Shown here: positions 598 through 17,588 of the stretch, piece by piece
Layout: the number at the start of each line of letters is the position of its first letter
How positions within the stretch are numbered: the stretch's first letter is position 1
Assembly (NCBI RefSeq): GCF_013394595.1
Contig: NZ_CP053348.1
Span: 1,762,001 to 1,826,000 of the forward strand
Direction: 5' to 3'
DNA length: 64,000 nt
Source of the DNA: Winogradskyella forsetii
GTDB taxonomy: Bacteria > Bacteroidota > Bacteroidia > Flavobacteriales > Flavobacteriaceae
The notes under the pieces: model-generated
Seen by the model: only the letters and a program-made list of their open reading frames with translations
Databases searched by the model: none
What the model was told of the DNA's origin: nothing
Translations under genes and position numbers: made by a program

Positions 598-640
598 CTA
601 AATTATTCAGAATGTTTGTTTTAGACTATGATATTAGTCA
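598..640 (-). promoter_or_regulatory. Fnr-type class II promoter of the flavin-binding protein gene
   Basis: Read on the minus strand: TGACTAATATCA at 640-629 (one mismatch to TGAT-N4-ATCA), then TAATTTAG at 605-598 as the -7 element. The box start lies 35 bp before the -7 start, as at seven other promoters here. The predicted start site is about 593, 20 nt before the ATG at 573. Confidence 0.6.
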
Positions 641-656
641 GTTCCTTTAAATTAAA

Positions 657-1244
657 TTATTTTTTCTTTAGACGTCTTTTGTCCATTAATGCCCAATAAA
701 TTCCTTTGACATCTGAAGCCCAATTATCATACATAAAAATGAGCGAAATTTCCTCAATAGTTTCTAATAAGCCAATGCCAATCATGATATAGAAAAGTGA
801 ATAATTAGGTGAGAAAAACAAAGACCATAAAATAAAAACACTTTGCATTACAGCAGAAACCTTAGCCAAATAGGTGTGGAAAGCAGTGGCTTTGCCATAT
901 TTGGAATAGGCGATAATCATTTGTAAAATGTATGGGACAAAAGCAATAAGAATTAAAATAAAATTGGTTTTAATAAAATCAGTTTCAAAATAAAATAAAC
1001 CTAATAAACCAATTATCAAGGTTATTTGGTCTCCAAAAGAGTCCAATTGCGAACCTCTAGGACTGGTAATCTTCAATCTTCGTGCTAAATAGCCATCAAT
1101 GGCGTCAGTTGAATAACTTACTAAAAGCAGCCATGTAAAAATTAAACGCTGGTCAAAACAAATAAGTGCCAATAGAAATGGTGCTGCAAAAATTCTATAG
1201 AATGAAAACCAATCAGCAATGTTGAAGTTTTTGAAAGTGAGCAT
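657..1244 (-). CDS. CDP-alcohol phosphatidyltransferase family protein
   Basis: A 195-residue integral membrane enzyme with the complete family signature DG-x2-AR-x8-G-x3-D-x3-D, seen as DGYLARRLKITSPRGSQLDSFGD around residues 48-70. These acidic residues bind the metal and the CDP-diacylglycerol (or other CDP-alcohol) whose phosphatidyl group is moved to an alcohol acceptor in phospholipid synthesis. Four or more hydrophobic segments follow. The family includes PgsA, PssA and phosphatidylinositol-phosphate synthases; the acceptor cannot be told here. It lies 99 bp downstream of the metal ATPase gene and has its own promoter with a degenerate Fnr-like box at 1293-1304, so it is probably a stress-linked paralogue rather than the housekeeping enzyme. 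Confidence 0.85.
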   Translation of the reverse strand: MLTFKNFNIADWFSFYRIFAAPFLLALICFDQRLIFTWLLLVSYSTDAIDGYLARRLKITSPRGSQLDSFGDQITLIIGLLGLFYFETDFIKTNFILILIAFVPYILQMIIAYSKYGKATAFHTYLAKVSAVMQSVFILWSLFFSPNYSLFYIMIGIGLLETIEEISLIFMYDNWASDVKGIYWALMDKRRLKKK

Positions 1245-1261
1245 TGTTATTTTGTTTTCGG

Positions 1262-1304
1262 TAAAATTATCACAATGCTGTTGTATCTAAAATGAGAAAT
1301 GTCA
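1262..1304 (-). promoter_or_regulatory. Degenerate Fnr-type promoter of the CDP-alcohol transferase gene
   Basis: On the minus strand TGACATTTCTCA (1304-1293) has one mismatch in each half-site of TGAT-N4-ATCA. A -7 element, TAATTTTA, lies at 1269-1262, exactly 35 bp on. The predicted leader is about 13 nt. The box alone would not convince; the exact spacing does most of the work. Confidence 0.4.
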
Positions 1305-1343
1305 GTTTAAACACTAACATTTCTATAATTAAAAAAACTGAAA

Positions 1344-3311
1344 TTAATGGATTTTATAACGAAGCAATCGCAAAGCATTTAAAACCACAACAATAGTAGA
1401 TCCTTCATGAAAAGCAACTGCTACTCCAATATTAGTTAGTCCTAAAATTGTGATAGGAACCAATAAAACCACAACACCTAGACTTATAAAAATGTTTTGT
1501 TTGATGATACGTTTTGATGCGCGACTCAAACCTATAACAAATGGTAAATTTTCAATTTTATCAGACATAAGAGCAACATCAGCAGTTTCTAGCGCGACAT
1601 CACTTCCTGCTGCTCCCATCGCGATACTCACTGTACTTAATGCCATGGCTGGGGCATCATTAACACCATCACCAACCATTGCGATTTTCTTATCTCTTTT
1701 TATTAATAGTTTTATGGCCTCAACTTTATCTTCTGGCAGTAAGTTTCCTTTGGCCTCTGTAAGTCCAATTTGTTTGGCAATGGCATTCCCAACATTTTGA
1801 TGGTCTCCTGTGAGCATGATCATGTGTTTAATGCCAATTTCTTTTAACCGCTTTAGTGTGGAGGTAGCAGTTTTTCGCGGTAAATCCATGACACTTATCA
1901 GTCCAACAATTTCGGTTTTAAAAGCAACTAACATTACGGTATGTCCATGTTGTAGAAGATCGTCCATTTTAGAGCGAATAGTGTCATCTACTATTATGCC
2001 AGAATCTTCCATCAGTTTTACATTTCCGACAAATACTTTATGACCGTGATATTTTGCTTGAATACCTTTACCTTGAATGGCGTTAACGTTTGAGGCATTA
2101 TTATGAAATTCAATACTGTACTTAATCTTTAAATCATTAGCTATCGCTTGTGCTAATGGATGATTACTTAAACTTTCCACTTCCAACACCAACTTAGCCA
2201 AGGCTTCCTCATCGAAATCCTTTAAAGGAATTAGATTTGTAAGTTTTGGTTTGCCTTCGGTCAATGTACCTGTTTTATCAAATGCAATCGTTGTGATTTC
2301 CCCTAAATCCTCTAAAGCTTTTCCGCCTTTAATGAGAACCCCTTTTTGTGCGGCTCTTGCTATTCCACTTAAAACGGCACTTGGCGTAGATATTGCCAAT
2401 GCGCAAGGACTAGCTGCAACTAATACTGTTATGGCTCTGTATATACTAGTATTAAAACTTTCATCTATAATCAAAAATGCAAAACACAATAGAATTACGA
2501 CTAAAATAACTATGGGGACGTACCATTTTTCAAACTTTTTAGTGAGTCGCTGTGTTGGTGATTTTTGAGCCTCAACTTCGCTTACCATATTAATTAATCT
2601 GGACACCGTAGAATCTTTTGTCAGTTTGAGAACTAAAACCTCAATACTACTATCGCCATTGATAGTGCCTGCAAATACAACGTGGGTTTTATCAATATCT
2701 TTAAACTCAGGTAAATTTGTTGTGTTTTCAATAAATGTTTTGTCAACAGGAATACTTTCTCCAGTTATTGGTGCCTGATTGATAGTACTGCTACCACTTA
2801 TAATAATGCCATCTGCGGCAATTTTTGTATTAGGCTTCACAATAATAACGTCATCTATTTTTAAAGCCTCAATTGATACTTCTTCAAGTTTCCCGTTCCT
2901 TTTAATTAAAGCTGTTTTTGGTGATATATTGCCCAATGCTTCAATTGATTTTTTAGCTTTTTTCATGGCATAATGCTCCAATGCGTGGCCTAAACTAAAC
3001 AGAAACAAAAGTAATGCGCCTTCTGCCCAACTACCAATATAGGCTGCACCAGCTGCTGCTGCAATCATTAAAAAATCGATATCAAATTCTCCTTTAGGAA
3101 TTTTTTTAGATGCTTCTATAGTGATAAAGTAGCCGCCGAAACAATAGGATATAATGTAGCTCAATAAAGACATCCAATCTGCTAAACCGGTTAATTTTTC
3201 AATTAAAAAGCCTATGAATAGAAATACTCCACACAAAATTGCGAAATAGAGTTCTGTTTTTTTACCTAAAATTTGATGATTTACATGAGTAGTTTGTTCT
3301 TTATTTGCCAT
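1344..3311 (-). CDS. P1B-4-type heavy-metal efflux ATPase
   Basis: A 655-residue P-type ATPase. Visible motifs are TGES in the actuator domain, SPC at about residues 301-303 in the metal-binding transmembrane helix, the phosphorylation site DKTGTLTEG with D345, the HP dipeptide of the nucleotide-binding domain (SNHPLAQAI), GDGVNDAP in the hinge, and HEGST near residue 635 in the last helices. SPC plus HEGxT defines subgroup P1B-4 (CoaT/CtpD-like), which exports Co(II), Fe(II), Zn(II) or Cd(II), rather than the CPC copper or CPC-zinc groups. There is no N-terminal HMA domain or CXXC motif, as is usual for P1B-4. I found no Fnr box in its own upstream region. Confidence 0.9.
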   Translation of the reverse strand: MANKEQTTHVNHQILGKKTELYFAILCGVFLFIGFLIEKLTGLADWMSLLSYIISYCFGGYFITIEASKKIPKGEFDIDFLMIAAAAGAAYIGSWAEGALLLFLFSLGHALEHYAMKKAKKSIEALGNISPKTALIKRNGKLEEVSIEALKIDDVIIVKPNTKIAADGIIISGSSTINQAPITGESIPVDKTFIENTTNLPEFKDIDKTHVVFAGTINGDSSIEVLVLKLTKDSTVSRLINMVSEVEAQKSPTQRLTKKFEKWYVPIVILVVILLCFAFLIIDESFNTSIYRAITVLVAASPCALAISTPSAVLSGIARAAQKGVLIKGGKALEDLGEITTIAFDKTGTLTEGKPKLTNLIPLKDFDEEALAKLVLEVESLSNHPLAQAIANDLKIKYSIEFHNNASNVNAIQGKGIQAKYHGHKVFVGNVKLMEDSGIIVDDTIRSKMDDLLQHGHTVMLVAFKTEIVGLISVMDLPRKTATSTLKRLKEIGIKHMIMLTGDHQNVGNAIAKQIGLTEAKGNLLPEDKVEAIKLLIKRDKKIAMVGDGVNDAPAMALSTVSIAMGAAGSDVALETADVALMSDKIENLPFVIGLSRASKRIIKQNIFISLGVVVLLVPITILGLTNIGVAVAFHEGSTIVVVLNALRLLRYKIH

Positions 3312-3435
3312 TAATGGTAATGTGTTTTTAATTCAAAAATTATAAAAAATGTTAATTTTCATTTTAGGGGTTATTTAGAAATAAATCTTTGAAAGGACAT
3401 CTGGTAATATAAAGTAACTCAATCTTGAGTGACTA

Positions 3436-4356
3436 TCATGGCTTTTCAGATTTGTCTGACGTAATTTTTATTTCAGGAATTTTAATAAGCTCTATTGTTG
3501 TTGATGCCAACACCACTTTCCCATTAGTTTGTTCAAAAGCTTTACGAATGCTATCGTGAAGCATATGTCTCGTCAATCGTCTTTTTTTGTAATCAACAAT
3601 ATATCTTAAATTGAACTCCACCCAATTATCGGTAAGTTTAATAGCAAGTGACGGTTCAACTACAGCATCTTCAATATAATACTTTTTTACAACTGCTTCC
3701 CATTGTGATTTAGATGCTTTAGTGTATTCTGAAAGTGTGTCTGAAGCAATTTTAATAACAATAGATTTTGCAAGTTCCATGTCAGAGCCATAACGAATTG
3801 GTAAATTGAATTGATCCCATATAAAGGGGAAATCCTGCGAATAGTTATAGATTGGTCCTTTAAAAACGAAGGCATTGCTCAACTTCACAATGCGCCCGCT
3901 ATAATTATCACTTTCTACCCATTTTCCTATTTCCATCATGGTGGTATAAATACTATCCACATCAATAACATCGCCTTTAATACCATTGATTTCAATACGA
4001 TCACCTGGCTTATAAACTTTTACCAAAAAGATATAAATGGAACCAGCAATGCTTAATATGAGTTCCTGTAGCGTAAATGCCAAACCTGCAGTAAACAACC
4101 CTATGATTATGGTAAAATCCTTAATTGTTCCAGAAAAATAAGTGATGGCAAAAAAAACTAATAACACGTAACCTATAATCTCTATGCCTTTTTGTGCTTT
4201 ATAACGTATTACAGTATTTGAAATCCGCTTTTTTAAATAACGTCTTAGCAACTGAATTACAAATAAAATAAGGACTAATATGGCAAGAAATTTAATAACA
4301 CTCCATATAAATGGATTCGTATATAACCATTCTTTTATTTGTTCTATTGCATTCAT
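3436..4356 (-). CDS. Small-conductance mechanosensitive ion channel (MscS family)
   Basis: A 306-residue protein with three hydrophobic helices (about 17-40, 60-78 and 82-112). The third is the glycine/alanine-rich pore helix GLFTAGLAFTLQELILSIAG. It is followed by the MscS beta domain, recognisable from the segment KVYKPGDRIEINGIKGDVIDV, and an alpha/beta C-terminal cage. The channel opens under membrane tension to release solutes on hypo-osmotic shock. The gene follows two small stress genes on the same strand with a 94-bp gap. I see no Fnr-type box directly upstream, so read-through from the TerB-like operon is possible. Confidence 0.88.
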   Translation of the reverse strand: MNAIEQIKEWLYTNPFIWSVIKFLAILVLILFVIQLLRRYLKKRISNTVIRYKAQKGIEIIGYVLLVFFAITYFSGTIKDFTIIIGLFTAGLAFTLQELILSIAGSIYIFLVKVYKPGDRIEINGIKGDVIDVDSIYTTMMEIGKWVESDNYSGRIVKLSNAFVFKGPIYNYSQDFPFIWDQFNLPIRYGSDMELAKSIVIKIASDTLSEYTKASKSQWEAVVKKYYIEDAVVEPSLAIKLTDNWVEFNLRYIVDYKKRRLTRHMLHDSIRKAFEQTNGKVVLASTTIELIKIPEIKITSDKSEKP

Positions 4357-4450
4357 GATTAGGTTATTAGAAATCCTGATGAATTCCGATTGATTCTATA
4401 ATATGCGTACGCTTTTAATACACAACTTTTGGTGAAAATCATAATAGCCC

Positions 4451-4663
4451 TTACACTTTATTGTGTGTTTTAGTATACTGTTTTAGTATCTCTTTTAGAC
4501 TTTCTAAATAATCTTCCATAACACTAATGGTCATATCTGGATGAATTTCATCTGAAATCGTTAATGGATTTTCATCTAGTTTAGCATAGAGCTCAGGGTA
4601 ATTTACGTCTATGCTTGTCGTTAAGGTTATTATTTGATTTTCTAAATCTTGTAGTGTTCTCAT
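4451..4663 (-). CDS. Small conserved-type hypothetical protein, 70 aa
   Basis: A 70-residue, acidic, mainly helical protein (MRTLQDLENQIITLTTSID at the start). It has no signal peptide, membrane segment or metal motif, and I do not recognise the family. It lies 61 bp downstream of the TerB-like gene on the same strand and probably shares the Fnr-type promoter of that gene. The ATG follows a low-complexity AT-rich stretch and the reading frame is well behaved, so I take it as real despite its size. Confidence 0.6.
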   Translation of the reverse strand: MRTLQDLENQIITLTTSIDVNYPELYAKLDENPLTISDEIHPDMTISVMEDYLESLKEILKQYTKTHNKV

Positions 4664-4724
4664 AACATTTGTCTTAAATATAAAGTGAGATTCAAACTGA
4701 AATATGTATTCTTATTATTCAGTT

Positions 4725-5138
4725 TTAAGTTTTTTTTAATTCCATATCCAATTTTGCCATTAACATTAATTCCGATTTATTAATACCAGAAAATGCATGT
4801 GCAATGGCTGAGCCTGTTTTTATAATCAACTTTTTTACTTTATCAGTGAACAGGTGTTTTTGGTCGTTTTTATAAGAAACAAAATCCTTATAGCAAATAT
4901 CGCTATCAATTTCTTCATCATAATTGAGCCAATCAAAAACAACTTCTATTTGGTAAGCGGCATCGATCCCAAAAACATCTTCAATATCATCGATTTTAAG
5001 CCAGTGTTCTTTAACAAAAGTTTTGAGTTTTTCTATTTCTATAGGTCTGATGGTTCCATCTATAGCTGCAATGGCATAAAATAGTTTACCGAGATTCTGA
5101 TAAAACTTTACGGTCATTTTCTTTTTAGTTGTCATCAT
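4725..5138 (-). CDS. TerB-like helical protein
   Basis: A 137-residue all-helical protein. The segment GKLFYAIAAIDGTIRPIEIEK near residues 15-36 resembles TerB/DjlA-like domains, in which an acidic 'A.aDG.i...E' helix pair is associated with tellurite resistance and stress response. The rest of the protein does not clearly continue the TerB pattern, so the assignment is tentative. An in-frame second Met (MTVKFYQ) is an alternative start. It is transcribed divergently from the LOV kinase, with an Fnr box at 5191-5202 spaced correctly for this gene (leader about 17 nt). It therefore appears to be the lead gene of a small stress operon. Confidence 0.6.
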   Translation of the reverse strand: MMTTKKKMTVKFYQNLGKLFYAIAAIDGTIRPIEIEKLKTFVKEHWLKIDDIEDVFGIDAAYQIEVVFDWLNYDEEIDSDICYKDFVSYKNDQKHLFTDKVKKLIIKTGSAIAHAFSGINKSELMLMAKLDMELKKT

Positions 5139-5159
5139 TTTGACATTAATTCATACCGT

Positions 5160-5202
5160 AAATTTAAATTTCTCATTTGGTTCACGGAATGATATTCATC
5201 AG
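5160..5202 (-). promoter_or_regulatory. Fnr-type class II promoter facing the TerB-like gene
   Basis: TGATGAATATCA (5202-5191 on the minus strand) is a perfect TGAT-N4-ATCA palindrome. The -7 element TAAATTTT (5167-5160) starts 35 bp on. The same box is centred about 76 bp upstream of the predicted start of the divergent kinase gene, so it might also act on that promoter. Confidence 0.65.
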
Positions 5203-5236
5203 CTAAAAATCATTTCTTAAACCTTAACAAACTGGA

Positions 5237-5268
5237 TTGTAATAATCGAATAGGATTATCTATCTTTA
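5237..5268 (+). promoter_or_regulatory. Probable constitutive promoter of the LOV kinase operon
   Basis: TATCTTTA at 5261-5268 fits the flavobacterial -7 element (TANNTTTG with a final A), with TTG at 5237-5239 as a possible -33 element 21 bp before it. The start site would be about 5273, 16 nt before the GTG start codon. There is no Fnr box at the class II position. Confidence 0.4.
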
Positions 5269-5288
5269 GTTTCTAATCTAACCCTATT

Positions 5289-7169
5289 GTGTTTCAACAA
5301 GACCAGGAAATATTTAATATTCTATTAGAATCCGTTGCAGAAGGGGTCATAGTTGTGGATGATCACCAAATTATTGTTGAAGTGAATAATACTGCAGCAA
5401 AAATGTTTGGTTATGAAACTAAAGAACTCTTAAAGCAACCGCTAAACATTCTAATACCAAAAAAACACCAAAAGACACATGATACACAAGTTAAAGACTT
5501 TTTGAAAGAACAAAGCCATCGTTCAATGAAACATAGGCCAGATATTTTTGGAGCAAAAAAAGATGGTACTGTTTTTCCTATTGAGGCCAGTTTGAGTTCG
5601 TTTAAAATTTATAATCAAAATTTTACAATGGCCTTGGTTATTGATATTACAGCACGTAAAGATTTTGAATATAACTTAGCAATGAAAAGTAAGGCATTGC
5701 AATCTTCAAGTAATGGAATTCTAATCACAGATGCGCTCAAAAAGGATAATCCCATTATTTATTTTAATCCAGCATTTACAGAATTAACGGGCTATTCAAA
5801 AGAAGAAATCTTAAACAAAAATTGTAGATTTCTGCAGGCTGATGATAGAGATCAAGACAGCATAAAAGAAATGCGTCTAGCTATAAAAGAGGGCAGAAGC
5901 TACAAAACCATTATTCGCAATTACAAGAAAGATGGTACACTATTTTGGAATGATTTGAGCATCACACCTATCACGAATAATGATGGCATAATCACTAATT
6001 TTATTGGGATACAAAATGATATCACGGAACGAAAAAAATTAGAACAGGAGAAAAATCATTTAGCTAAGATATTTGAAGAGTCTCTTAATGAAATCTATGT
6101 TTTTGATGCTGAAAGTCTAAAATTTATCAACGTTAATCATGGTGCTCAAATAAATATAGGTTATAGTTTGGAAGAATTGCTTTCTATGACACCATTGGAC
6201 ATAAAACCCGATTTTTCACAAGCAAAATTTAAAAAGGAAATAGAACATCTTGAAAAAGAGACCGTTGACAAAATTGAATTTGAAACCGTTCATCGACGAA
6301 AATCAGGAACTACCTATCCCGTAAATGTACATTTACAACGTTCTAAACTTGGCAATAAAGCAGTTTACGTCGCCATTATTTTAGACATCACTGAACAAAA
6401 AAATTATACAGAAACGTTAGAAAAAACGGTTAAAATTAGAACAGAGGAATTACAGACCGCTTTAGCTGCGGAAAAGGATCTGAACGAACTAAAAACAAAA
6501 TTTCTGTCTATGGTTTCGCATGAGTTCAAAACACCGTTAAGTGGTATTTTAACCTCTACCATGCTACTCAGAAAGTACAAGTTAACCGATCAGCAAGATA
6601 AACGCGAAAAGCACATAGATACCATTTCAGACAAAGTACACTATCTCAATACTATTCTCAATGATTTTCTTTCCGTAGAGAAACTGGAAAAAGGTAAAGT
6701 CAATTATAAATTTACCAATTTCAAATTAAGCAAAGTTTTAAATGAAGTCATCTACAATGCCAATATGCTCTTAAAAAATGGGCAAAAAATCAATTATCCC
6801 GAAAACATAGATGATATTTCCTTATTTCAAGATGAAAAAATTTTAGAACTGATCTTGTCAAATCTTATTTATAATGCCATTAAATATTCGTCTGAAAACA
6901 CCATGGTTGATATCAACATTTCCCAAAATGAAACGAGTACTATTTTCAAAATCAAGGACAATGGCATTGGCATTCCCGAGAAAGATCAAAAAAATATTTT
7001 CAATCGTTACTTTAGAGCCGAAAATGTTTTGCTCATGCAAGGCACAGGTATTGGTTTGAATATCGTAAAAGACCATTTAGAAAACTTAAATGGCAGCATT
7101 ACTTTTGAAAGCATAGAACACAAAGGTTCAACCTTTACCATAGAACTTCCCAACAAAGCGCGACTATGA
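5289..7169 (+). CDS. PAS-LOV-PAS sensor histidine kinase (blue-light receptor type)
   Basis: A 626-residue soluble kinase starting at GTG. Domain order is PAS (about 5-120), LOV (about 130-250), PAS (about 255-375), a short coiled coil, HisKA with H411 in MVSHEFKTPLSG, and an HATPase domain with N, DNGIGIP and GTGIGLNIV boxes. The middle domain has the LOV signature NCRFLQ with the photoactive C179, the FMN-contacting N211 and N221 in NYKKDGTLFWND, and Q242 in FIGIQNDIT. These are the residues that form the blue-light cysteinyl-flavin adduct in YtvA and phototropins. No membrane segment is seen. The gene overlaps the response-regulator gene by 4 bp (ATGA), so the two are translationally coupled. 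Sensing of flavin redox state rather than light remains possible. Confidence 0.93.
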   Translation: MFQQDQEIFNILLESVAEGVIVVDDHQIIVEVNNTAAKMFGYETKELLKQPLNILIPKKHQKTHDTQVKDFLKEQSHRSMKHRPDIFGAKKDGTVFPIEASLSSFKIYNQNFTMALVIDITARKDFEYNLAMKSKALQSSSNGILITDALKKDNPIIYFNPAFTELTGYSKEEILNKNCRFLQADDRDQDSIKEMRLAIKEGRSYKTIIRNYKKDGTLFWNDLSITPITNNDGIITNFIGIQNDITERKKLEQEKNHLAKIFEESLNEIYVFDAESLKFINVNHGAQINIGYSLEELLSMTPLDIKPDFSQAKFKKEIEHLEKETVDKIEFETVHRRKSGTTYPVNVHLQRSKLGNKAVYVAIILDITEQKNYTETLEKTVKIRTEELQTALAAEKDLNELKTKFLSMVSHEFKTPLSGILTSTMLLRKYKLTDQQDKREKHIDTISDKVHYLNTILNDFLSVEKLEKGKVNYKFTNFKLSKVLNEVIYNANMLLKNGQKINYPENIDDISLFQDEKILELILSNLIYNAIKYSSENTMVDINISQNETSTIFKIKDNGIGIPEKDQKNIFNRYFRAENVLLMQGTGIGLNIVKDHLENLNGSITFESIEHKGSTFTIELPNKARL

Positions 7170-8218
7170 AAACAGTACTATTAATAGAGGACGATACCGT
7201 GTTACGGGAAAATACCGCCGAATTATTAGAACTTTCCAATTACGAAGTTGTCACAGCTGCGAATGGGCAAATAGGTCTAGAGAAGGCAGTGCTTAAGAAA
7301 CCTGACATCATTGTTTGCGATATTATGATGCCTGTTCTTGATGGTTATGGTGTTTTGGAAGGCTTATCAAAATATAACGACACAAAATTTATTCCCTTCA
7401 TCTTCTTATCTGCTAAAACCGAGCATAAGGACGTGAGAAAAGGCATGGATTTGGGTGCAGACGATTATATTACAAAACCATTTACCGAAGATGAAATTAT
7501 AAGTGCCATAAAGAGCAGAATTGCAAAAGCTGCGCTGTTTAAAGAGGAACGTGAATCGGTTAAAAGCACCAATGGAACTAATGAAGAGGAGTTGAGTACT
7601 TTAAATGATTTAAAAAACTTTTTTGATGATAATGGCAGTGTTTTTAGCTACAAGAAAGATGATATCATTTATAAGGAAAGACATAATTCCAATTATATCT
7701 ATTTAATTTTGAAAGGTGTCGTAAGGTGTTATAAATTTGATGAAAATGGAAAGGAACTTACCACAGCACTTCATAAAGAAGATGATATTTTTGGATATAC
7801 ATCCTTTACACAGAACATTCCTTATAGAGAAACTGCAATAGCCTTGGACAATTTAAAAATGGTCGGTGTTTCTAAAACTGAGCTAAAAGATGTATTGGAC
7901 AAAAACCACAAAGTGACCTTAGAAGTCATTCAGTTATTGACTGATGATATTACAGGTGTTAAAGACCAGTTATTGCAAATGGCTTACAGTTCTGTAAAAC
8001 GAAAAACCGCATCGACTATCCTGAGATTTGCAGAAAAAATTAATTCAAAACCAGATGATCCCATAAAAATATCCCGTTACGATTTGGCAAGTGTTGCAGG
8101 CATTGCCACTGAAACTTTTATAAGAACCATGTCCGATTTTAAAAAGCAGGGACTCATAGAAATGGACGGGAGAAATATAAAAGTTATCGACCTAGAGAAG
8201 CTAAAGGATATTGACTAG
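7166..8218 (+). CDS. Response regulator with receiver, cNMP-like and Crp/Fnr DNA-binding domains
   Basis: A 350-residue transcription factor. Residues 1-120 form a receiver with acidic D9/D10, phospho-acceptor D52, S82 and K104 all in place. Residues about 155-275 match the cyclic-nucleotide-binding jelly roll, and the C-terminus is a Crp-type winged helix whose recognition helix contains E316-T-F-I-R320. This E-x3-R pair matches the base-reading Glu and Arg of Fnr and Crp. The N-terminal Cys cluster used by Fnr for its iron-sulfur centre is absent, so activation should come from phosphorylation by the overlapping LOV kinase. It is the natural candidate for reading the TGAT-N4-ATCA boxes in this region; that link is inferred. 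Confidence 0.92.
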   Translation: MKTVLLIEDDTVLRENTAELLELSNYEVVTAANGQIGLEKAVLKKPDIIVCDIMMPVLDGYGVLEGLSKYNDTKFIPFIFLSAKTEHKDVRKGMDLGADDYITKPFTEDEIISAIKSRIAKAALFKEERESVKSTNGTNEEELSTLNDLKNFFDDNGSVFSYKKDDIIYKERHNSNYIYLILKGVVRCYKFDENGKELTTALHKEDDIFGYTSFTQNIPYRETAIALDNLKMVGVSKTELKDVLDKNHKVTLEVIQLLTDDITGVKDQLLQMAYSSVKRKTASTILRFAEKINSKPDDPIKISRYDLASVAGIATETFIRTMSDFKKQGLIEMDGRNIKVIDLEKLKDID

Positions 8219-8239: not shown

Positions 8240-8282
8240 TGATGGATATCATTTTATAAAAAAGCGTATCGTTTTAAATTTG
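8240..8282 (+). promoter_or_regulatory. Fnr-type class II promoter of the first usp gene
   Basis: A perfect box, TGATGGATATCA, at 8240-8251 and a perfect -7 element, TAAATTTG, at 8275-8282. The predicted start is about 8287, which places the box centre at -41.5. The leader to the ATG at 8304 is about 17 nt. Confidence 0.75.
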
Positions 8283-8303: not shown

Positions 8304-9143
8304 ATGAATGTTTTATTACCAACAGACTTTTCTGAAAACGCAAAGAACGCCATTTCGTATGCCATTGATTTTTTTGAATCTAGGGAGTGTCATTTTTACG
8401 TGCTTCATGTCAACAGGATTGAAGGCATGGTCGCTGGAGTAGAACCTTATATGCCTACGGAAGAAGTTATAGAAGCGGTTTATACAAAACCATCGAGAAC
8501 AAAATTAAGACAATTGCTCAAAGAAATAAGCGCGAATAACAGACCAAACAAAAAGCACCGTTTTTATGCACTTACGGATAACGATTTCTTTTTAGAATCC
8601 ATAAGAAAATATGTAGATGAAAAGAAAATAGAAACAATTGTTATGGGTACAAAAGGTGCGTCAGGTCTTAGGGAATACATCATAGGTAGTAATACTGGCG
8701 ATGTTATCACAAAAGTAAAATGTACCACCTTGGTCGTACCAGAACATGCTAAATATAGCAGATTAAGGGAAATTGCATTTCCATCAGATTTCAATCTATC
8801 CTACGATATTAATATCCTACAACCATTAACTGAAATTTTAAAGAACTTTGAAAGCAAACTTAGGATTGTACATATACATAAAAGAGATACCCAATTAAAT
8901 ACTGAACAAAATAATAATAAGGAATTGCTCAATGATTATTTTGAAGAGTTTAATCCAACCTTTCATTTTCTAACCAATAAAAAAGTTGAAGATGCCATAC
9001 AGTGCTTTGTAGAAAGTAGGGCTGTAGATATGATTGTAATGGTGGCAAAGAACCTCAACTATTTCCAAAATATTTTATTTCATACCAAAGTTGAAAAAAT
9101 AACGTATCACACTGATATTCCATTCTTAGTATTACACGAATAA
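8304..9143 (+). CDS. Two-domain universal stress protein (UspA family)
   Basis: A 279-residue tandem Usp protein. The N-terminal domain begins MNVLLPTDFSENAKNA and carries the ATP-binding motif G115-x2-G118-x9-G128-S129 in VMGTKGASGLREYIIGSN. The C-terminal domain keeps the fold but has lost this glycine motif (VMVAKNLNYFQN), a pattern shared by all six Usp proteins here. Usp proteins are cytoplasmic and bind ATP or other nucleotides; they raise tolerance to starvation, hypoxia and other stress by means that are poorly known. The gene lies directly downstream of the two-component system but has its own Fnr-type promoter, and is followed 12 bp later by a small membrane-protein gene. Confidence 0.92.
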   Translation: MNVLLPTDFSENAKNAISYAIDFFESRECHFYVLHVNRIEGMVAGVEPYMPTEEVIEAVYTKPSRTKLRQLLKEISANNRPNKKHRFYALTDNDFFLESIRKYVDEKKIETIVMGTKGASGLREYIIGSNTGDVITKVKCTTLVVPEHAKYSRLREIAFPSDFNLSYDINILQPLTEILKNFESKLRIVHIHKRDTQLNTEQNNNKELLNDYFEEFNPTFHFLTNKKVEDAIQCFVESRAVDMIVMVAKNLNYFQNILFHTKVEKITYHTDIPFLVLHE

Positions 9144-9648: not shown

Positions 9649-9661
9649 ATATAAATACATC

Positions 9662-9704
9662 TGATAAATATCATTGTTTTTAGACTATTTACACTTTAAT
9701 TTTA
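9662..9704 (+). promoter_or_regulatory. Fnr-type class II promoter of the second usp operon
   Basis: Perfect box TGATAAATATCA at 9662-9673, with -7 element TAATTTTA at 9697-9704, 35 bp from box start to -7 start. The predicted start is near 9709, 21 nt before the ATG at 9730. Confidence 0.72.
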
Positions 9705-9729: not shown

Positions 9730-10578
9730 ATGCTATCTATTCTGCTTCCTACCGACTTTTCAGAAAACGCCATGAACGCCATAAAGTACGCTCTGGAATT
9801 TTTCAAATACCAAAAAACCACTTTCTATTTTATGCATGCGTATCAAAATGAGTTTTATGACCATGAAGGGTTAACCTCTCGTGACGTATTTGATGATGTT
9901 TTAGATACCATAAAAAATGAATCGCAAACCAACTTAGAAAATCTGATAAATGAAGTAAAAAAAATAGCACCAAATCCCAGATTTACATATCATTCCATTT
10001 CAGCATATAATACATTAGTAGAAGAAGCAAATTTTATTGCAGATGACAAAAATATAGATTTGATAGTCATGGGCACTAAAGGCAAATCAGATGCGCGACA
10101 TATTGTATTTGGTAGTCAAACGTTCCAGGTTTTAAAATATGTGCAATGTCCTGTTCTAGCCATTCCATCCGATTATGCCCATACGCAACCCAAACGCATA
10201 TTGTTCCCAACAAATTACATGATGCCTTATAAGCGTCGCGAACTGAAACTACTATCCATTTTGGCAAAATCTTACAGAAGCCATATTGATGTTCTGTATG
10301 TTTCCACAAGTCACAAATTATCCATAAGACAAGAAGACAACAAAGCGTTTATTGCAGATGCATTATGTGAAAATGAAGTGAATTTTTGCCAAGAGGAGAG
10401 TCGACAAGTAACAGATGCTATTAAGACCTATATAAAAGAAAAAGACATTGATATTATTACCATGGTTAATAGCCAACATTCATTTTTAGAAGACATGCTA
10501 TTTCCTTCTAATATAGATAAAGTCAGCATTGACTTAAAAATACCGTTACTTGCTATGCAGAATACCACACGCTATTAA
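9730..10578 (+). CDS. Two-domain universal stress protein, operon lead gene
   Basis: A 282-residue tandem Usp protein starting MLSILLPTDFSENAMNA. The ATP motif is intact in the first domain (VMGTKGKSDARHIVFGSQ, i.e. G-x2-G-x9-G-S) and missing in the second. It is followed by two more usp genes with gaps of 18 and 72 bp on the same strand, and I take the three as one operon because only this gene has a clear Fnr-type promoter. The array has drifted well apart in sequence, so these are old duplications rather than recent copies. Confidence 0.9.
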   Translation: MLSILLPTDFSENAMNAIKYALEFFKYQKTTFYFMHAYQNEFYDHEGLTSRDVFDDVLDTIKNESQTNLENLINEVKKIAPNPRFTYHSISAYNTLVEEANFIADDKNIDLIVMGTKGKSDARHIVFGSQTFQVLKYVQCPVLAIPSDYAHTQPKRILFPTNYMMPYKRRELKLLSILAKSYRSHIDVLYVSTSHKLSIRQEDNKAFIADALCENEVNFCQEESRQVTDAIKTYIKEKDIDIITMVNSQHSFLEDMLFPSNIDKVSIDLKIPLLAMQNTTRY

Positions 10579-11511: not shown

Positions 11512-12345
11512 ATGAAAAAAAACATCCTATTACCTACAGATTTTTCAGATAATGCATGGTGTGCAGCTGTGTATGCACTAAAATTATATGCTAATGTTGA
11601 ATGTAATTTCTATTTTTTACATAGTTGGTCGGTTTTACCTAACACTGCTAGAACTTACATTACCTCAAACTATGTCAATACCGTAAAAGAAAAGGCCTTG
11701 CAACAATTAGCCGATTTAAAGCACACCGCAGAAAATGCTAATGTTAATGCTAATCATAGTTTTGAGATTATTTTAAGTAAAGAAAAATTGCAAAAAGCAA
11801 TAACAACAGCGGTAGAAAAACATAAGATAGATCTCATTGTTATGGGAACTAAAGGCGCCTCAAAAACAAGAGAACTGTTTTTTGGCAGTAATACGGTCAA
11901 TACTATAAAATCAAAGTTGTGTCCCATATTTGTAGTTCCAGATGAATATGATTTTGTGACCCCTAAACAAATTGCTTTTCCTACTGACTTCAACAGGTTT
12001 TACGGCGAGGAATTACTACCAATAAAACACCTAGCAGATATGAATAATTCTAAAATTAGAATAGTTCATATTACTAAAAATAGTAATTTAACGAGCATGC
12101 AAGATTATAATCTGGCGATGTTAAAAGTCTACTTGGAAAACCATCCACACACATTTCATTGGATGCCGGATTACGCCAATAAGGTTCAGGAAATAAATGA
12201 TTTTATCGAAGAACTCGATATCAACATTCTAGTGATGATAAATTATCAACATAGCTTTATCGAAAAAGTAATGAACGAACCCGTGGTGCATAAAATTGGG
12301 TTTCATCCTAAAATTCCTTTTTTGGCTATTCCTTGTGTGATCTGA
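11512..12345 (+). CDS. Two-domain universal stress protein
   Basis: A 277-residue tandem Usp protein beginning MKKNILLPTDFSDNAWCA, with VMGTKGASKTRELFFGSN in domain one and a motif-less second domain. The 72-bp gap before it contains only a half Fnr site (TGAT at 11451) without a matching partner or correctly spaced -7 element, so I treat the gene as the last member of the three-gene usp operon. Its stop codon TGA at 12343-12345 is itself the first three bases of the next Fnr box. Confidence 0.9.
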   Translation: MKKNILLPTDFSDNAWCAAVYALKLYANVECNFYFLHSWSVLPNTARTYITSNYVNTVKEKALQQLADLKHTAENANVNANHSFEIILSKEKLQKAITTAVEKHKIDLIVMGTKGASKTRELFFGSNTVNTIKSKLCPIFVVPDEYDFVTPKQIAFPTDFNRFYGEELLPIKHLADMNNSKIRIVHITKNSNLTSMQDYNLAMLKVYLENHPHTFHWMPDYANKVQEINDFIEELDINILVMINYQHSFIEKVMNEPVVHKIGFHPKIPFLAIPCVI

Positions 12346-12385
12346 TATATATCATTTAATGTTATAGACTGTTAGACTATATTTA
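12343..12385 (+). promoter_or_regulatory. Fnr-type class II promoter of the fifth usp gene
   Basis: Perfect box TGATATATATCA at 12343-12354, overlapping the stop codon of the preceding usp gene, and -7 element TATATTTA at 12378-12385. The spacing is again 35 bp. The predicted start is about 12390, 21 nt before the ATG. Confidence 0.7.
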
Positions 12386-12410: not shown

Positions 12411-13265
12411 ATGAGACATAGAATATTAGTACCAACAGACTTTTCCAAAAATGCAACAAAAGCATTGCGTTACGCTATAGAACTCTATAAAGATGTTCCT
12501 TGTGACTTTTATTTGCTGAACGTATTTACTGCAGGTGGTAACATCTTAGAAGACTTGCTGAACATGGAACCAGGAACTGAATCGTACGAAAGAAAAAAGA
12601 TAGATTCTGAAAATGGTTTAGCAAAAATTTACGATATGATTGCCATGACAGAATACGATAACCCTAAACATCATTTTAACGTCATCTCTGTTTTCAACAA
12701 TCCTATTGAAGCTATTAAAGATGCGGTAGAAAAAAATGATATTGAAATTATAGTTATGGGAACAAAAGGGGAAACTAATTCCAGAAAAACTGCTTTTGGG
12801 AGTACTGCGATTTACGTAATGGAAAAAGTACGCAACTGCCCAGTTATTGTGGTGCCACTGAATGCAAAATCGGTGATGCCAAAAGAAATAGTATTTCCCA
12901 CCAGCTACAAAACACATTATAAAAAAAGAGAATTAAATTACCTCGTAGATATAGCTAAAAAATTTGAAGCAACTATTATAGTACTTCATATATCTGAAGA
13001 AAATGAGCTAAGTAAAGAACAGAATGAAAACAGACAGTTACTGGAAAACATAATAGAAGACACAAACCACAAACCTCATTTCTTATCGCACAGTTCGGTA
13101 GAAACCGCTATCAACATTTTTATTGAAAGTAGAGATAGCGATATGGTTGCTTTTATAAATAAAAAGCATGTTTTTTTTGGAAGTATTTTAACAGATCCAT
13201 TAGTGAAACATATTTCATTTCATTCTAAAGTTCCAATACTGGTAATGCACGATTTAAGAAATTAA
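12411..13265 (+). CDS. Two-domain universal stress protein
   Basis: A 284-residue tandem Usp protein beginning MRHRILVPTDFSKNATKA. Its first-domain motif VMGTKGETNSRKTAFGST is intact; the second domain again lacks the glycines. It has its own Fnr-type promoter and is followed by the ATP-cone nuclease gene (75-bp gap) and the beta-CASP nuclease gene (12-bp gap) on the same strand. Since neither downstream gene has a clear regulated promoter, a usp-nuclease-RNase operon under Fnr-type control is likely. Confidence 0.9.
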   Translation: MRHRILVPTDFSKNATKALRYAIELYKDVPCDFYLLNVFTAGGNILEDLLNMEPGTESYERKKIDSENGLAKIYDMIAMTEYDNPKHHFNVISVFNNPIEAIKDAVEKNDIEIIVMGTKGETNSRKTAFGSTAIYVMEKVRNCPVIVVPLNAKSVMPKEIVFPTSYKTHYKKRELNYLVDIAKKFEATIIVLHISEENELSKEQNENRQLLENIIEDTNHKPHFLSHSSVETAINIFIESRDSDMVAFINKKHVFFGSILTDPLVKHISFHSKVPILVMHDLRN

Positions 13266-13340
13266 AAAATTTATTAATGGCTATTTATCGTAGTACTAAA
13301 ATACAATTGTTGCTGAAGTTAGGGACGTTAAATTATCAAT

Positions 13341-14180: not shown

Positions 14181-14192
14181 TCTAATATTAAT

Positions 14193-15566
14193 ATGGAAAA
14201 GTTTGTAAAAATCAATTTTTTAGGAGCAGCAGGTGTTGTTACAGGTTCAAAATTTTTAATTGAAACTTCAGAAAAAAACATCCTGATAGATTGTGGGATG
14301 TTTCAAGGTTTAAAAGAGCTTCGACTACTTAATTGGGAAGATCTGCCTATCGATGTGCCATCCATTGATGTCGTTTTATTAACGCATGGCCATTTAGACC
14401 ATGTTGGTTATCTACCTCGTTTACTAAAACAAGGTTTTAAAGGCAAAGTTATCGGTACGGCACCAACTTTAGCTATAGCAGAAATTATATTAAAGGATAG
14501 CGCTAAAATCCATGAAGAAGAGGCCAAAAAAGCAAATGAGGAAAATTACACTAAACACAATCCCGCTCTACCTTTTTACACCATTAAAGATGCCGAAAAC
14601 ACCATCAAACAATTTGAAGTTGAAAATGAAGACCAATGGATTCAATTATCAGAACACATCGCTTTCCGCTTTCAATATAATGGACATATTTTAGGTGCCA
14701 CCTTTATAGAATTAGACATTAACGGAAAGCGATTTGTCTTTTCGGGAGATATTGGCAGAAGAAACGATTATTTATTAAACGATCCTAAAAGACCTGAAAG
14801 GGCAGATTTTTTATTCATAGAAAGTACGTATGGCAACAAATTACACCCTGAAGAAAATGTTGAAGAAGTTTTAACGGAAATCGTTTTAGACACCATCCAT
14901 AAAAAGGGCAATCTCATTATTCCGAGCTTTGCTGTCGAGCGATTACAAACACTGATGTTTATTATTTGGAGGTTATATCAAAAAAACAAAATTCCGAACA
15001 TTCCAATTTTTATCGATAGTCCTATGGGCAATAACGTGTTGGATGTCTTTAAGCGTTTTCCTAAATGGCATAAACTATCCACTGAAGACTATACTGCCAT
15101 GTGCAATCATTTTAATATCATTCAATCCTATAAAGAAACTTGGGAAACCATTGACGATAAACGATCTAAAATCATTATTGCCGGAAGTGGTATGGTTACA
15201 GGTGGAAGGGTATTAACTTATTTGCAACAACTTATTGATGAGCCTATGACCACCGTTTTATTAGTTGGTTATCAAGCAGAAGGTACTCGTGGTAGACAAC
15301 TTTTAGAAGGTACTCACGAAATTAAATTTTTCGGTAAATACTATCCTGTAAAAGCCAAAATAAGAAGTATCAAAAGCTTATCAGCCCATGCAGACCAGCA
15401 AGATTTGTTGGATTGGGTTAGCCATATTAATAACGTACCTGAAAAAGTTTTCCTAATCCATGGTGAACCTCCAGCTTTAGATGCTTTCAGAGTAAAATTA
15501 AAAGATGAATACCATTGGGATGTTACCATACCAAAGCTTACCGATGTATGCAAAGTGTTGGTTTAA
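14193..15566 (+). CDS. Beta-CASP metallo-beta-lactamase RNA-processing exonuclease
   Basis: A 457-residue enzyme of the YSH1/CPSF73-like family. The metal-binding motif T64-H-G-H67-L-D69-H70 is complete, and GHILGATFIE and FSGDIGRR supply further metal ligands. A beta-CASP insert follows (PSFAVERLQTLM; SGMVTGGRVLTYL), and the C-terminal motifs SLSAHADQ and LIHGEPPALDAF belong to the RMMBL region. Such proteins cut or trim RNA with two zinc ions. Length fits the bacterial family of about 450-460 residues. The gene starts 12 bp after the ATP-cone nuclease gene and is almost surely translated from the same mRNA. In this cluster it may reshape RNA pools during stress. Confidence 0.9.
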   Translation: MEKFVKINFLGAAGVVTGSKFLIETSEKNILIDCGMFQGLKELRLLNWEDLPIDVPSIDVVLLTHGHLDHVGYLPRLLKQGFKGKVIGTAPTLAIAEIILKDSAKIHEEEAKKANEENYTKHNPALPFYTIKDAENTIKQFEVENEDQWIQLSEHIAFRFQYNGHILGATFIELDINGKRFVFSGDIGRRNDYLLNDPKRPERADFLFIESTYGNKLHPEENVEEVLTEIVLDTIHKKGNLIIPSFAVERLQTLMFIIWRLYQKNKIPNIPIFIDSPMGNNVLDVFKRFPKWHKLSTEDYTAMCNHFNIIQSYKETWETIDDKRSKIIIAGSGMVTGGRVLTYLQQLIDEPMTTVLLVGYQAEGTRGRQLLEGTHEIKFFGKYYPVKAKIRSIKSLSAHADQQDLLDWVSHINNVPEKVFLIHGEPPALDAFRVKLKDEYHWDVTIPKLTDVCKVLV

Positions 15567-15583
15567 AACTAAGTCTCCCAAAC

Positions 15584-15626
15584 TGATATTTATCATTTCA
15601 ATATGTAACCTTAAGTATTAAATTAG
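15584..15626 (+). promoter_or_regulatory. Fnr-type class II promoter of the hsp20 gene
   Basis: Perfect box TGATATTTATCA at 15584-15595 and -7 element TAAATTAG at 15619-15626, spaced by 35 bp. The predicted start is near 15631, 31 nt before the ATG at 15662. Confidence 0.7.
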
Positions 15627-15661
15627 TGATAGAAACAAGGATAAACTAAAATCATAGTATT

Positions 15662-16114
15662 ATGTCACTCATTAAATTTAACAACAGAAATAGATTGTTC
15701 CCTTCTTGGAATAATGACAGCTTAACAAGTTTTTTAAGCAGCGATGATTTTTTGAATAATGACTTTTTTGATGAAGATAGCTTAATGCCAGCAATGAATG
15801 TAAAAGAACATGAAAATGACTTTGAAATTGAATTTGCAGCACCTGGATTTTCTAAAAAGGATTTTGAAGTAACCATTAGTGATAACATGCTTAATGTTTG
15901 TGGTGAAAAAAAGAAAGAAATTGAAGAAAAGCAGGGAGATTACACACGTAAGGAGTTTAGTTACAATTCATTTAGAAGATCATTGCAACTGCCAAAATCA
16001 GCTAATGCCGATCAAAAAGTAAAAGCGACTTACAAAGATGGTATCCTTAAGCTAAATCTTCAAAAGAAAACCGAAGCTAAAGCAAAATCAAAAAAAGTAA
16101 TTGAAGTTTTGTAG
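15662..16114 (+). CDS. Hsp20/alpha-crystallin family small heat-shock protein
   Basis: A 150-residue holdase chaperone. The alpha-crystallin domain spans about residues 42-140 and shows the usual motifs: FEIEFAAPGFSKKDFEVTI, a G-E-K-K-rich loop, EFSYNSFRRSLQLP, and the conserved ATYKDGILKLNL near the end. The N-terminal 40 residues are Asn/Asp/Phe-rich and disordered; the C-terminus is lysine-rich. It prevents aggregation of unfolded proteins in the cytoplasm without ATP. It has an Fnr-type promoter, and a 14-bp-stem hairpin follows 7 bp after the stop codon. I see no inverted-repeat CIRCE or heat-shock sigma motif. Confidence 0.93.
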   Translation: MSLIKFNNRNRLFPSWNNDSLTSFLSSDDFLNNDFFDEDSLMPAMNVKEHENDFEIEFAAPGFSKKDFEVTISDNMLNVCGEKKKEIEEKQGDYTRKEFSYNSFRRSLQLPKSANADQKVKATYKDGILKLNLQKKTEAKAKSKKVIEVL

Positions 16115-16121
16115 TAACTGA

Positions 16122-16160
16122 GAAAGCAGAGCGTGGTTAGAGGGATCACGTTCTGCTTTC
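16122..16160 (+). terminator. Strong hairpin after hsp20
   Basis: A 14-bp stem pairs 16122-16135 with 16147-16160 (one G-U pair) around an 11-nt loop. It is not followed by a T-run, so it may be an RNA stabiliser or a partial terminator rather than a full Rho-independent terminator, allowing some transcription into the next gene. Confidence 0.55.
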
Positions 16161-16176
16161 CTATTAAAAAAACACC

Positions 16177-16626
16177 ATGAAAACCACACGAACACATTTG
16201 CGCTACGTAGAATGGCTAAGTCCTGAGGAAATGCACAACGCGTCTAAAGAATGGTTATCTGAATTGAATTTTATTAAAGACGAACATCTATTTTTTGAAG
16301 ATTTGGTAACTCAATTTACATCCCAATTGATAGCGTTTGGTAATTTTTCCAGTATCAAGGAAATTATCGATACGGTCAACAGGTCCCAAAAACAAAATAA
16401 CACGCTGATAGAGGCTGTTAAACTTCATGAAAATGAATTACAAACAATGGTTGATGGTATTAATCAGATAAAAGAAGAAAAGGCTTATGTCAGGGAGCAT
16501 AGCGATTTAATCTTTGCTATTACCGAATTCTTAAAAGACTACAAATCACTCAAGTCACAACTTTTCGATATCATTAAAACCGTTAAGAAAGAAGATAAAA
16601 ACCGACATCTGCTGGACAGAAAATAA
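16177..16626 (+). CDS. Helical hypothetical protein, 149 aa
   Basis: A 149-residue, highly charged, all-helical cytoplasmic protein with likely coiled-coil segments at about 70-105 and 115-145. It has no metal site, signal or membrane helix, and I do not recognise a family. It starts 62 bp after hsp20, beyond a hairpin lacking a T-run, and has no Fnr box of its own, so it is probably expressed by read-through from the hsp20 promoter. It ends 68 bp before the convergent sixth usp gene. Confidence 0.65.
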   Translation: MKTTRTHLRYVEWLSPEEMHNASKEWLSELNFIKDEHLFFEDLVTQFTSQLIAFGNFSSIKEIIDTVNRSQKQNNTLIEAVKLHENELQTMVDGINQIKEEKAYVREHSDLIFAITEFLKDYKSLKSQLFDIIKTVKKEDKNRHLLDRK

Positions 16627-16694
16627 ATATAATGGGAACATTTAGACTTGTATGGATTGGTTTGCTAATTTTAATTGTTCCTCATCCTCATTGA

Positions 16695-17528
16695 CTAAGT
16701 ATGGAATACCAAAAGGGGAACTCGAATTGAATTACTAATTCTAGTTGTGGCTGAACCTATAAAAAAGCGCTCTAAAAGACTTTCTGGTTGCGCTAACAAT
16801 ATCATAAGATCAATTTTGTGGGTCTGTATATAACAATCAACAACATAGTTCATTGGTATATCATTTACTATGTGGTATTCGTAATCTGTACTTTTAAGAT
16901 AATTATCTAAATTTTCTTTATCCTTTTGGTCTTCTGGTAAGTTGTCACTATTGGGTATAATTCGCAGTACATGTATTTTTTCACTAAACCTATCAGTGAA
17001 TTTAGAAGCCTTATTAAAGGCATTACCACTCAACGTATCTTCAACATCTAATGGCAAAAGAATTTCATTTGCTTTTCTAAAATCAAACCCTTTTGGAACA
17101 ATTAAGGTTGGACAATCAATAGTTCTAATAACATTTATAGTATTACTGCCAAAAACAACTTCCTTAGCACCAGTAACACCATTTGTTCCCATGACAATTA
17201 AATCAATAGCTCTAGTTTTTATAACCTGATAAATAGCATCAGTTAAATTATCAAAATCAACGATAGTTTTAAATGTGAAAGTTTCAGAATTCAACCTTGT
17301 TTTCAAATCCAATACCATACGATCCAATTCCTCTTTTTCACCTTTGACAATTGAATTATAGATGCTTTCATTTCCTAAAGTCATGAGATCATCAGTAGTA
17401 TATGAGGCAGAACTTTTGACATGAAGTATAAAAAAGTCACAGGTATTCCCTTTAAATAAATTCATTGAATAGTCAATGGCATTTAAAGAATTTTCAGAGA
17501 AGTCCGTTAACAAGAGTATACGTTTCAT
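16695..17528 (-). CDS. Two-domain universal stress protein, convergent to the array
   Basis: A tandem Usp protein of 278 residues if started at the ATG at 17528 (MKRILLLTDFSENSLNA), which aligns with the N-termini of the other five. The frame stays open upstream to an ATG at 17585, but the predicted transcription start (about 17541) lies between the two, so the longer version would not be on the mRNA. Domain one has VMGTNGVTGAKEVVFGSN, with the G-x2-G-x9-G-S motif kept; domain two has lost it. It has its own perfect Fnr box. It closes the regulon on the right-hand side. Confidence 0.9.
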   Translation of the reverse strand: MKRILLLTDFSENSLNAIDYSMNLFKGNTCDFFILHVKSSASYTTDDLMTLGNESIYNSIVKGEKEELDRMVLDLKTRLNSETFTFKTIVDFDNLTDAIYQVIKTRAIDLIVMGTNGVTGAKEVVFGSNTINVIRTIDCPTLIVPKGFDFRKANEILLPLDVEDTLSGNAFNKASKFTDRFSEKIHVLRIIPNSDNLPEDQKDKENLDNYLKSTDYEYHIVNDIPMNYVVDCYIQTHKIDLMILLAQPESLLERFFIGSATTRISNSIRVPLLVFHT

Positions 17529-17545
17529 CATATCACAATTAAGTC

Positions 17546-17588
17546 TAAAATTAGATATTAATTTCCTCATTTTATATGATATCAATCA
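17546..17588 (-). promoter_or_regulatory. Fnr-type class II promoter of the sixth usp gene
   Basis: On the minus strand TGATTGATATCA (17588-17577) is a perfect box, and TAATTTTA (17553-17546) is the -7 element 35 bp from box start. The predicted start is about 17541, 13 nt before the ATG at 17528. Confidence 0.7.

Follow-up and report, generated by a model that had tools for sequence, protein, structure and literature searches.

A 64,000-nt stretch of Winogradskyella forsetii DNA (NZ_CP053348.1, positions 1,762,001-1,826,000; hereafter, the window) carries eight promoters in which a palindromic TGAT-N4-ATCA box precedes a flavobacterial −7 element, TANNTTT, at one fixed distance. These promoters probably represent, as far as sequence can tell, a low-oxygen regulon of the class II Crp/Fnr type in the Flavobacteriaceae that can be read by either of two activators, a cysteine-rich Fnr-like protein and a response regulator in which a receiver is joined to a Crp-type half (REC-Crp). 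Promoter geometry and its recurrence in relatives, the way in which motif numbers depend statistically on either regulator, and the domain make-up of the proteins were computed directly. The eight promoters had been listed in a preliminary description of positions 598..17588 of the window; they are given here together with a ninth that was absent from that description (matrix scores are those of the relatives-only weight matrix introduced below).

629-640, minus strand: box with one mismatch, TGACTAATATCA; gene served, Pyridox_ox_2 (118-573); matrix score 21.1
598-605, minus strand: −7 element of the 629 promoter, TAATTTAG; one mismatch to TANNTTT
1293-1304, minus strand: box with two mismatches, TGACATTTCTCA; gene served, CDP-alcohol phosphatidyltransferase (657-1244); matrix score 16.2
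1262-1269, minus strand: −7 element of the 1293 promoter, TAATTTTA; perfect
5190-5201, minus strand: box; gene served, weakly TerB-like (4725-5138); matrix score 27.0
5159-5166, minus strand: −7 element of the 5190 promoter, TAAATTTA; perfect
8240-8251, plus strand: box upstream of usp (8304-9143); matrix score 29.1
8275-8282, plus strand: −7 element of the 8240 promoter, TAAATTTG; perfect
9662-9673, plus strand: box upstream of usp (9730-10578); matrix score 34.7
9697-9704, plus strand: −7 element of the 9662 promoter, TAATTTTA; perfect
12343-12354, plus strand: box upstream of usp (12411-13265); matrix score 31.0
12378-12385, plus strand: −7 element of the 12343 promoter, TATATTTA; perfect
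15584-15595, plus strand: box upstream of hsp20 (15662-16114; named from the preliminary description and by eye); matrix score 30.0
15619-15626, plus strand: −7 element of the 15584 promoter, TAAATTAG; one mismatch to TANNTTT
17577-17588, minus strand: box upstream of usp, start near 17531 (open reading frame 16695-17585); matrix score 26.6
17546-17553, minus strand: −7 element of the 17577 promoter, TAATTTTA; perfect
55770-55781, plus strand: ninth box, TGACATAAATCA, upstream of tonB (55832-56575; Pfam TonB_C, 6.5e-13); matrix score 20.2
55805-55812, plus strand: −7 element of the 55770 promoter, TAACTTTA

The six perfect boxes of the preliminary description were all recovered (5190, 8240, 9662, 12343, 15584, and 17577; the first had been given as 5191), as were its two near matches, 629 with one mismatch and 1293 with two. 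At all eight sites the −7 element starts 35 bp after the box start and the orientation of the promoter agrees with that of the gene served, as had been described. The −7 element is a perfect TANNTTT in six of the eight promoters (1293, 5190, 8240, 9662, 12343, and 17577) and has one mismatch in 629 and 15584. The final G of this element, which had been noted as usually missing, is indeed absent from five of the eight, and in relatives position 8 is occupied by A at 51% of 283 sites and by G at 34%. Leaders had been put at 13-31 nt; counted from the predicted start they are here approximately 10-31 nt, the shortest leader hinging on the choice between two adjacent ATGs at the 17577 gene. Box 5190 sits between the TerB-like gene and a kinase gene, and no −7 element is present at +35 on the kinase side.

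The window contains nine perfect boxes, as compared to 2.45 ± 1.49 in shuffled sequences, and none of 100 shuffles reached nine; the three perfect boxes outside the earlier list lie in open reading frames, at 5843 (frame 5289-7169), 34582 (34326-35141), and 56739 (56630-57154). As an independent test, a weight matrix was trained on 196 non-redundant sites from relatives only, with the window excluded from training; the eight boxes and the box at 55770 scored 16.2 to 34.7 in the window and nothing else reached 9, and the reversed window yielded zero matches of at least 9. The whole W. forsetii genome (4.51 Mb) contains eight copies of the perfect spaced motif, five of them within this 12.4-kb stretch, and none of the reversed pattern. 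When up to one mismatch was allowed, there were 69 matches to the spaced motif vs 32 to the reversed pattern, indicating that isolated weak matches are often due to chance.

The same arrangement recurs in 80 named loci around relatives of the response regulator, which represent the best 80 of 403 candidates, are all flavobacterial by name, and were taken with flanks of 10 kb where the contig allowed. These loci contain 309 TGAT-N4-ATCA boxes. The reversed pattern gave 31 matches, the remaining palindromes that use these four letters gave 20-100, and the remaining gap lengths between 0 and 11 gave 36-88. A total of 235 boxes face a gene on at least one side and 48 of them face genes on both, giving 283 gene-facing orientations; a perfect TANNTTT is found at offset 35 in 171 of these (149 of 252 once near-copies are removed), and none of the remaining offsets between 16 and 74 has more than 6. 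Offsets 34 and 36 account for only 3 each, and the spacing is therefore rigid. The matrix gave 339 matches in the 80 loci vs 0 in reversed sequences, although it was trained on sites of these very loci. The preliminary description had proposed scanning the whole genome and related flavobacteria with the spaced motif, and the motif proved enriched over the reversed pattern in both, and over wrong spacings in the related flavobacteria. The explanation that the boxes are chance or low-complexity AT-rich matches can draw on the AT-richness of the genome and on the 32 reversed matches just mentioned, but it is contradicted by the spacing and palindrome controls, the former of which we take as its refutation, and its probability is negligible. 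Chance spacing was ruled out by the wrong-offset, reversed-sequence, and wrong-spacing controls, which bear out the earlier statement that chance agreement is very unlikely.

Class II activator sites of E. coli are centered at −41.5. In a study of F. psychrophilum (PMC9723704), mapped promoters carry a TAnnTTTG element at −12 to −5, and the median leader is 24 nt. With the −7 element placed as in F. psychrophilum (PMC9723704), the 35-bp distance makes the box span −47 to −36 with its center at −41.5, which upholds the class II geometry proposed previously. The promoters described here resemble the σA promoters of F. psychrophilum in this −7 element and its position (PMC9723704) but differ from them in having an activator box at a fixed distance upstream and in mostly lacking the final G. 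Start codons in relatives are mostly found 59-71 nt past the box start, which corresponds to leaders of approximately 12-24 nt. The promoters of this set thus appear to match class II Crp/Fnr geometry, their transcript starts being predicted. The consensus of E. coli Fnr is TTGAT-N4-ATCAA. The description of the box as Fnr-type stands for the TGAT-N4-ATCA core but not for the outer bases, as the base before TGAT is T in 8% and the base after ATCA is A in 5% of the 283 sites, the outer bases in relatives being A/C and T/G, respectively. The promoters thus share with E. coli Fnr and its class II promoters the core at −41.5 and targets of a low-oxygen type, and differ in these outer bases, in the −7 element TAnnTTT(A/G), and in the putative use of two activators per box.

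Two adjacent genes of the window encode the proposed reader of the box and its putative partner (domains from Pfam).

5289-7169, plus strand: sensor histidine kinase directly upstream of REC-Crp, with a FixL-like PAS, a LOV domain (NCRFLQ), a third PAS, HisKA, and HATPase_c
7166-8218, plus strand: REC-Crp response regulator, with a receiver, a cNMP-binding-type domain, and HTH_Crp_2

The REC-Crp protein matches Response_reg (8.5e-27), cNMP_binding (4.1e-16), and HTH_Crp_2 (7.3e-14), and the nearest solved structure for its Crp half is FixK2 (4i2o, 6.8e-14), with FNR next. The receiver letters EDD, DIMMP, and TKPF, in line with the acidic pocket, Asp, and Lys expected of a response regulator, are kept in at least 95% of 81 REC-Crp sequences; both REC-Crp and the Fnr-like protein combine a cNMP-binding-type domain with HTH_Crp_2, the combination that marks the Crp/Fnr superfamily. 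No N-terminal cysteine cluster was seen by eye in REC-Crp. Of 296 genomes sampled from the phylum, 43, belonging to several families, have REC-Crp proteins (E ≤ 1e-45).

The Fnr-like gene of W. forsetii (2659602-2660276) adjoins cco-type genes, named by eye, that carry the box. Six cysteines are present in all 30 Fnr-like sequences compared (its own and the best 29 from 95 genomes with a match), in a spacing that differs from that of E. coli Fnr, and the recognition helix also shows the E-x-x-I-R pattern. To relate the box to the two proteins, the exact spaced motif was counted in 149 genomes of the family, one per genus, with REC-Crp called at E ≤ 1e-40 (66 genomes) and the Fnr-like protein at E ≤ 1e-60 (88 genomes; 7 genomes with weaker matches were scored as lacking it). 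The N23 spacing accounted for 893 sites, as compared to 170 and 173 for each wrong spacing. Over six wrong spacings, the ratio was 8.7 in genomes with both regulators, 6.7 with REC-Crp only, 3.6 with the Fnr-like protein only, and 1.7 with neither; the corresponding sites per Mb were 2.88 (36 genomes), 1.98 (30), 1.40 (52), and 0.63 (31), as compared to 0.10-0.23 for the reversed pattern. Rank tests uncorrected for ancestry placed both REC-Crp only (p = 1.5e-7) and Fnr-like only (p = 6e-6) above neither, and the order of median excess sites per Mb was kept among genomes of at least 2.5 Mb (2.10, 1.70, 0.91, and 0.15). In REC-Crp-only genomes, 17 of 39 sites fall within 12 kb of REC-Crp, approximately 0.7% of a genome (these come from five of the 30 genomes, G027, G036, G101, G130, and G143 in our numbering).

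Based on these counts and on the 17 nearby sites, we take both proteins as readers; the earlier view of the response regulator as the sole reader is not upheld, since the cysteine-rich Fnr-like protein appears to read the same box. The converse, in which the Fnr-like protein is the sole reader and REC-Crp reads another site and merely shares the cluster, would suit the box-bearing cco-type genes next to the Fnr-like gene, the shared E-x-x-I-R pattern, and the 3.6-fold excess in genomes with the Fnr-like protein but without REC-Crp, where the motif also precedes usp-, hemN-, and ccoS-like genes. This alternative is nevertheless unlikely, given that the 30 genomes with REC-Crp and without an Fnr-like protein (E ≤ 1e-60) still show a 6.7-fold excess and that 17 of 39 sites cluster near REC-Crp in five of them. 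A third Crp protein as a hidden reader was ruled out by its rarity, as it is present in 5 of 149 genomes (E ≤ 1e-35). The Fnr-like gene lies approximately 1 kb from a REC-Crp gene in five genomes (G061, G071, G110, G121, and G134), and two or three REC-Crp matches occur in 16 of the 66 genomes with this protein (G007, G011, G022, G031, G037, G047, G054, and G056, as well as G061, G063, G108, G110, G111, G121, G129, and G133).

Several results weigh against a regulon of this kind with two readers. Among the 80 loci, 16 lack an exact box accompanied by at least four of the five −7 letters, and 6 lack any matrix site that has a gene. Three of the eight perfect matches in the W. forsetii genome lie outside the cluster, sit in open frames, and look doubtful or unlike promoters, and of 20 stretches chosen around matches in this genome, 6 contained a distal site that is followed by an ATG after 55-130 nt and whose box is not crossed by a long frame. 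Outside the Flavobacteriaceae, 2 of 18 REC-Crp loci (1.5-kb flanks) had a matrix site scoring at least 15, both times before a kinase-like gene; the box is established for the family Flavobacteriaceae and not for the phylum. Genomes with neither regulator still show a 1.7-fold excess (46 sites in 31 genomes), and one of them, G138, which is 99% complete, has 6 sites vs 4 for the reversed pattern. The comparison between regulators is uncorrected for shared ancestry, depends on E-value cut-offs, and scored the best 14-19 candidates per genome. No distinct box flavors were seen for the two regulators (the base preceding TGAT is C at 7 of 20 sites from REC-Crp-only and 4 of 20 from Fnr-like-only genomes, by eye), and a choice between REC-Crp and the Fnr-like protein cannot be made for any single promoter of the window. 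Finally, oxygen sensing by the window kinase is doubtful, as the position of an arginine of FixL is occupied by proline.

The six distal sites of the W. forsetii genome include ccoS-, pta-, HPF- (hibernation factor), and CBS-like genes, and a ccoI-like gene is also preceded by a site (the names pta, ccoS, ccoI, hemN, HPF, CBS, NorC, and WG-repeat were assigned by eye from translations here and below). Because of these distal sites and of tonB within the window, the regulon cannot be called local, as it had been. In the 80 loci, 295 of the 339 matrix matches have a downstream gene start, and these are spread over 74 loci. The targets are usp (131, in 67 loci), a TerB-like 136-aa protein (40, in 39 loci), WG-repeat-like (17), hsp20 (13), pyridoxamine-oxidase-like (10), a 149-aa protein (9), a 70-aa protein (8), cation ATPase (6), and hibernation factor (5); rarer ones include hemN-, ccoS-, and class-II-reductase-like genes, the last also named by eye. 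Similar genes were found at 20 chosen sites in four REC-Crp-only genomes (3 hemN-, 1 ccoS-, 2 cytochrome-c-, 1 NorC-, 2 HPF-, and 2 usp-like, by eye), 3 of these sites being within 12 kb of REC-Crp, and at 20 chosen sites in six Fnr-like-only genomes (2 hemN-, 1 ccoS-, 1 usp-, 1 cytochrome-c-, and 1 pta-like and 2 CBS, by eye), five of the latter sites having no called gene. We infer from this content that the regulon is probably a low-oxygen survival set.

Three observations concern individual targets. The window gene at 4725-5138 encodes a 137-aa product, weakly TerB-like (Pfam E = 0.16), of the type that is the second commonest target in relatives. The gene at 16177-16626 encodes a 149-aa protein with no family above the cut-off, which is a box target in 9 loci of relatives; in the window it lies downstream of hsp20 and lacks a box of its own. 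Genes judged tonB-like by eye also have a box in locus L041 and in genome G017 (L172).

The kinase is located directly upstream of REC-Crp in 77 of the 80 named loci, and in two of the remaining three the locus stops at a contig edge. Its first PAS has FixL as its best PDB match (5.6e-11 for the window kinase and 8e-15 for a relative), while residues ~130-260 of the window kinase best match LOV-type photoreceptors, and its LOV domain carries NCRFLQ, the motif of the photoactive cysteine. The idea that LOV belongs to the system throughout was rejected, as it is present in 11 of the 77 adjacent kinases and absent from 66 (the kinases of loci L016, L018, and L019 appear cut at the locus edge and were left out as evidence on a missing PAS). 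The position of the FixL heme histidine is His in all 78 kinases (77 named loci and the window), and that of the FixL arginine, which we take to be Arg220, is Arg in 67 of 78, comprising 64 of 66 without LOV and 3 of 12 with LOV. His and Arg are both kept in 26 of 29 kinases from REC-Crp-only genomes; the window kinase keeps His and has Pro at the Arg position.

These data bear on a reading in which, in this organism, the regulon has come to answer chiefly to blue light, with the LOV kinase driving REC-Crp and oxygen left to the Fnr-like protein alone. It would fit the window kinase's own LOV domain with its NCRFLQ cysteine, the replacement of the FixL Arg in 9 of 12 LOV kinases vs 2 of 66 others, and the presence of LOV kinases in 11 of the 36 genomes that have both regulators, as compared to 1 of 29 with REC-Crp only (Fisher p = 0.008, uncorrected; 65 of the 66 REC-Crp genomes, G089 being left out). 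However, the FixL His is kept in the window kinase, and the window cluster retains the same targets as its relatives. LOV kinases are scattered over the REC-Crp tree, with 7 changes, and supported branches offer 4 independent pairs, 3.5 of them in the same direction (p = 0.125), which are too few for a test; moreover, the tree was built from REC-Crp, and the kinases may travel independently of it. We consider such a switch to light possible, though on the doubtful side. The distribution of LOV and the loss of Arg suit a reading in which oxygen is the ancestral input and light was added to it or replaces it.

For the low-oxygen regulon with two activators, the following mechanism is proposed. 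A Crp/Fnr-type dimer would bind directly to (A/C)TGAT-N4-ATCA(T/G), centered at −41.5, and recruit RNA polymerase to the fixed TAnnTTT(A/G) −7 element. Two activators would serve this one box, namely the Fnr-like protein with its six conserved cysteines and REC-Crp, which would be paired with the upstream PAS histidine kinase. The latter pair may represent a compressed FixL-FixJ-FixK chain, in which a sensor kinase acts, with phosphorylation as the switch, on one protein that contains both receiver and FixK. The predicted regulon includes usp, hsp20, TerB-like, and pyridoxamine-oxidase-like genes and, by eye, hibernation factor, hemN, ccoS, cytochromes, and pta. Oxygen would be the ancestral signal, and blue light a possible added input in this genome, where the LOV kinase lacks an arginine at the position aligned to FixL Arg220.

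The system resembles FixL-FixJ-FixK of rhizobia in that, among solved structures, the first PAS of the kinase is closest to FixL and the Crp half closest to FixK2, and in its cbb3/hemN-type targets (by eye); it differs in that receiver and FixK halves form one protein, no separate FixJ having been seen, in that some of the kinases have LOV, and in targets rich in usp and hsp20, another phylum, and another promoter core. The promoter class would work like the FixL-FixK chain and like Fnr, and we claim membership in neither; for Fnr, this is because its outer bases are not kept. The DosR-type hypoxia regulon of mycobacteria is a dormancy set rich in usp and small heat shock genes under two-component control with a LuxR-type regulator. 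It is similar in this gene set and in its two-component system but differs in its regulator, which here is REC-Crp, and in the DNA box. No description of a REC-Crp regulator or of this box in flavobacteria was found among the matches listed from open-licence literature, which consisted of titles and the openings of abstracts. A previous study (PMC8510549) predicted that Crp/Fnr homologues of a Flavobacteriales genome sense carbon availability; these homologues may be different superfamily members, but for the branch studied here the gene content points to oxygen.

A broader idea, which is possible though somewhat less likely than not and which we advance tentatively, is that in the Flavobacteriaceae the Fnr-like protein and REC-Crp as a fused "FixJ-FixK" are interchangeable activators of the low-oxygen program on one promoter grammar, so that a given genome may retain one of them or the two together; once oxygen is taken care of by the Fnr-like protein, the kinase of the fused system may swap its heme oxygen switch for a LOV blue-light switch, and dormancy genes would then respond to light, as in the genome of the window. 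If the regulon is as proposed, a widespread environmental family gains a low-oxygen regulon that can be scanned for in genomes by an exact promoter grammar, with two probable regulators named and with a suggested natural exchange of sensors, oxygen for light, that may leave the output unchanged.

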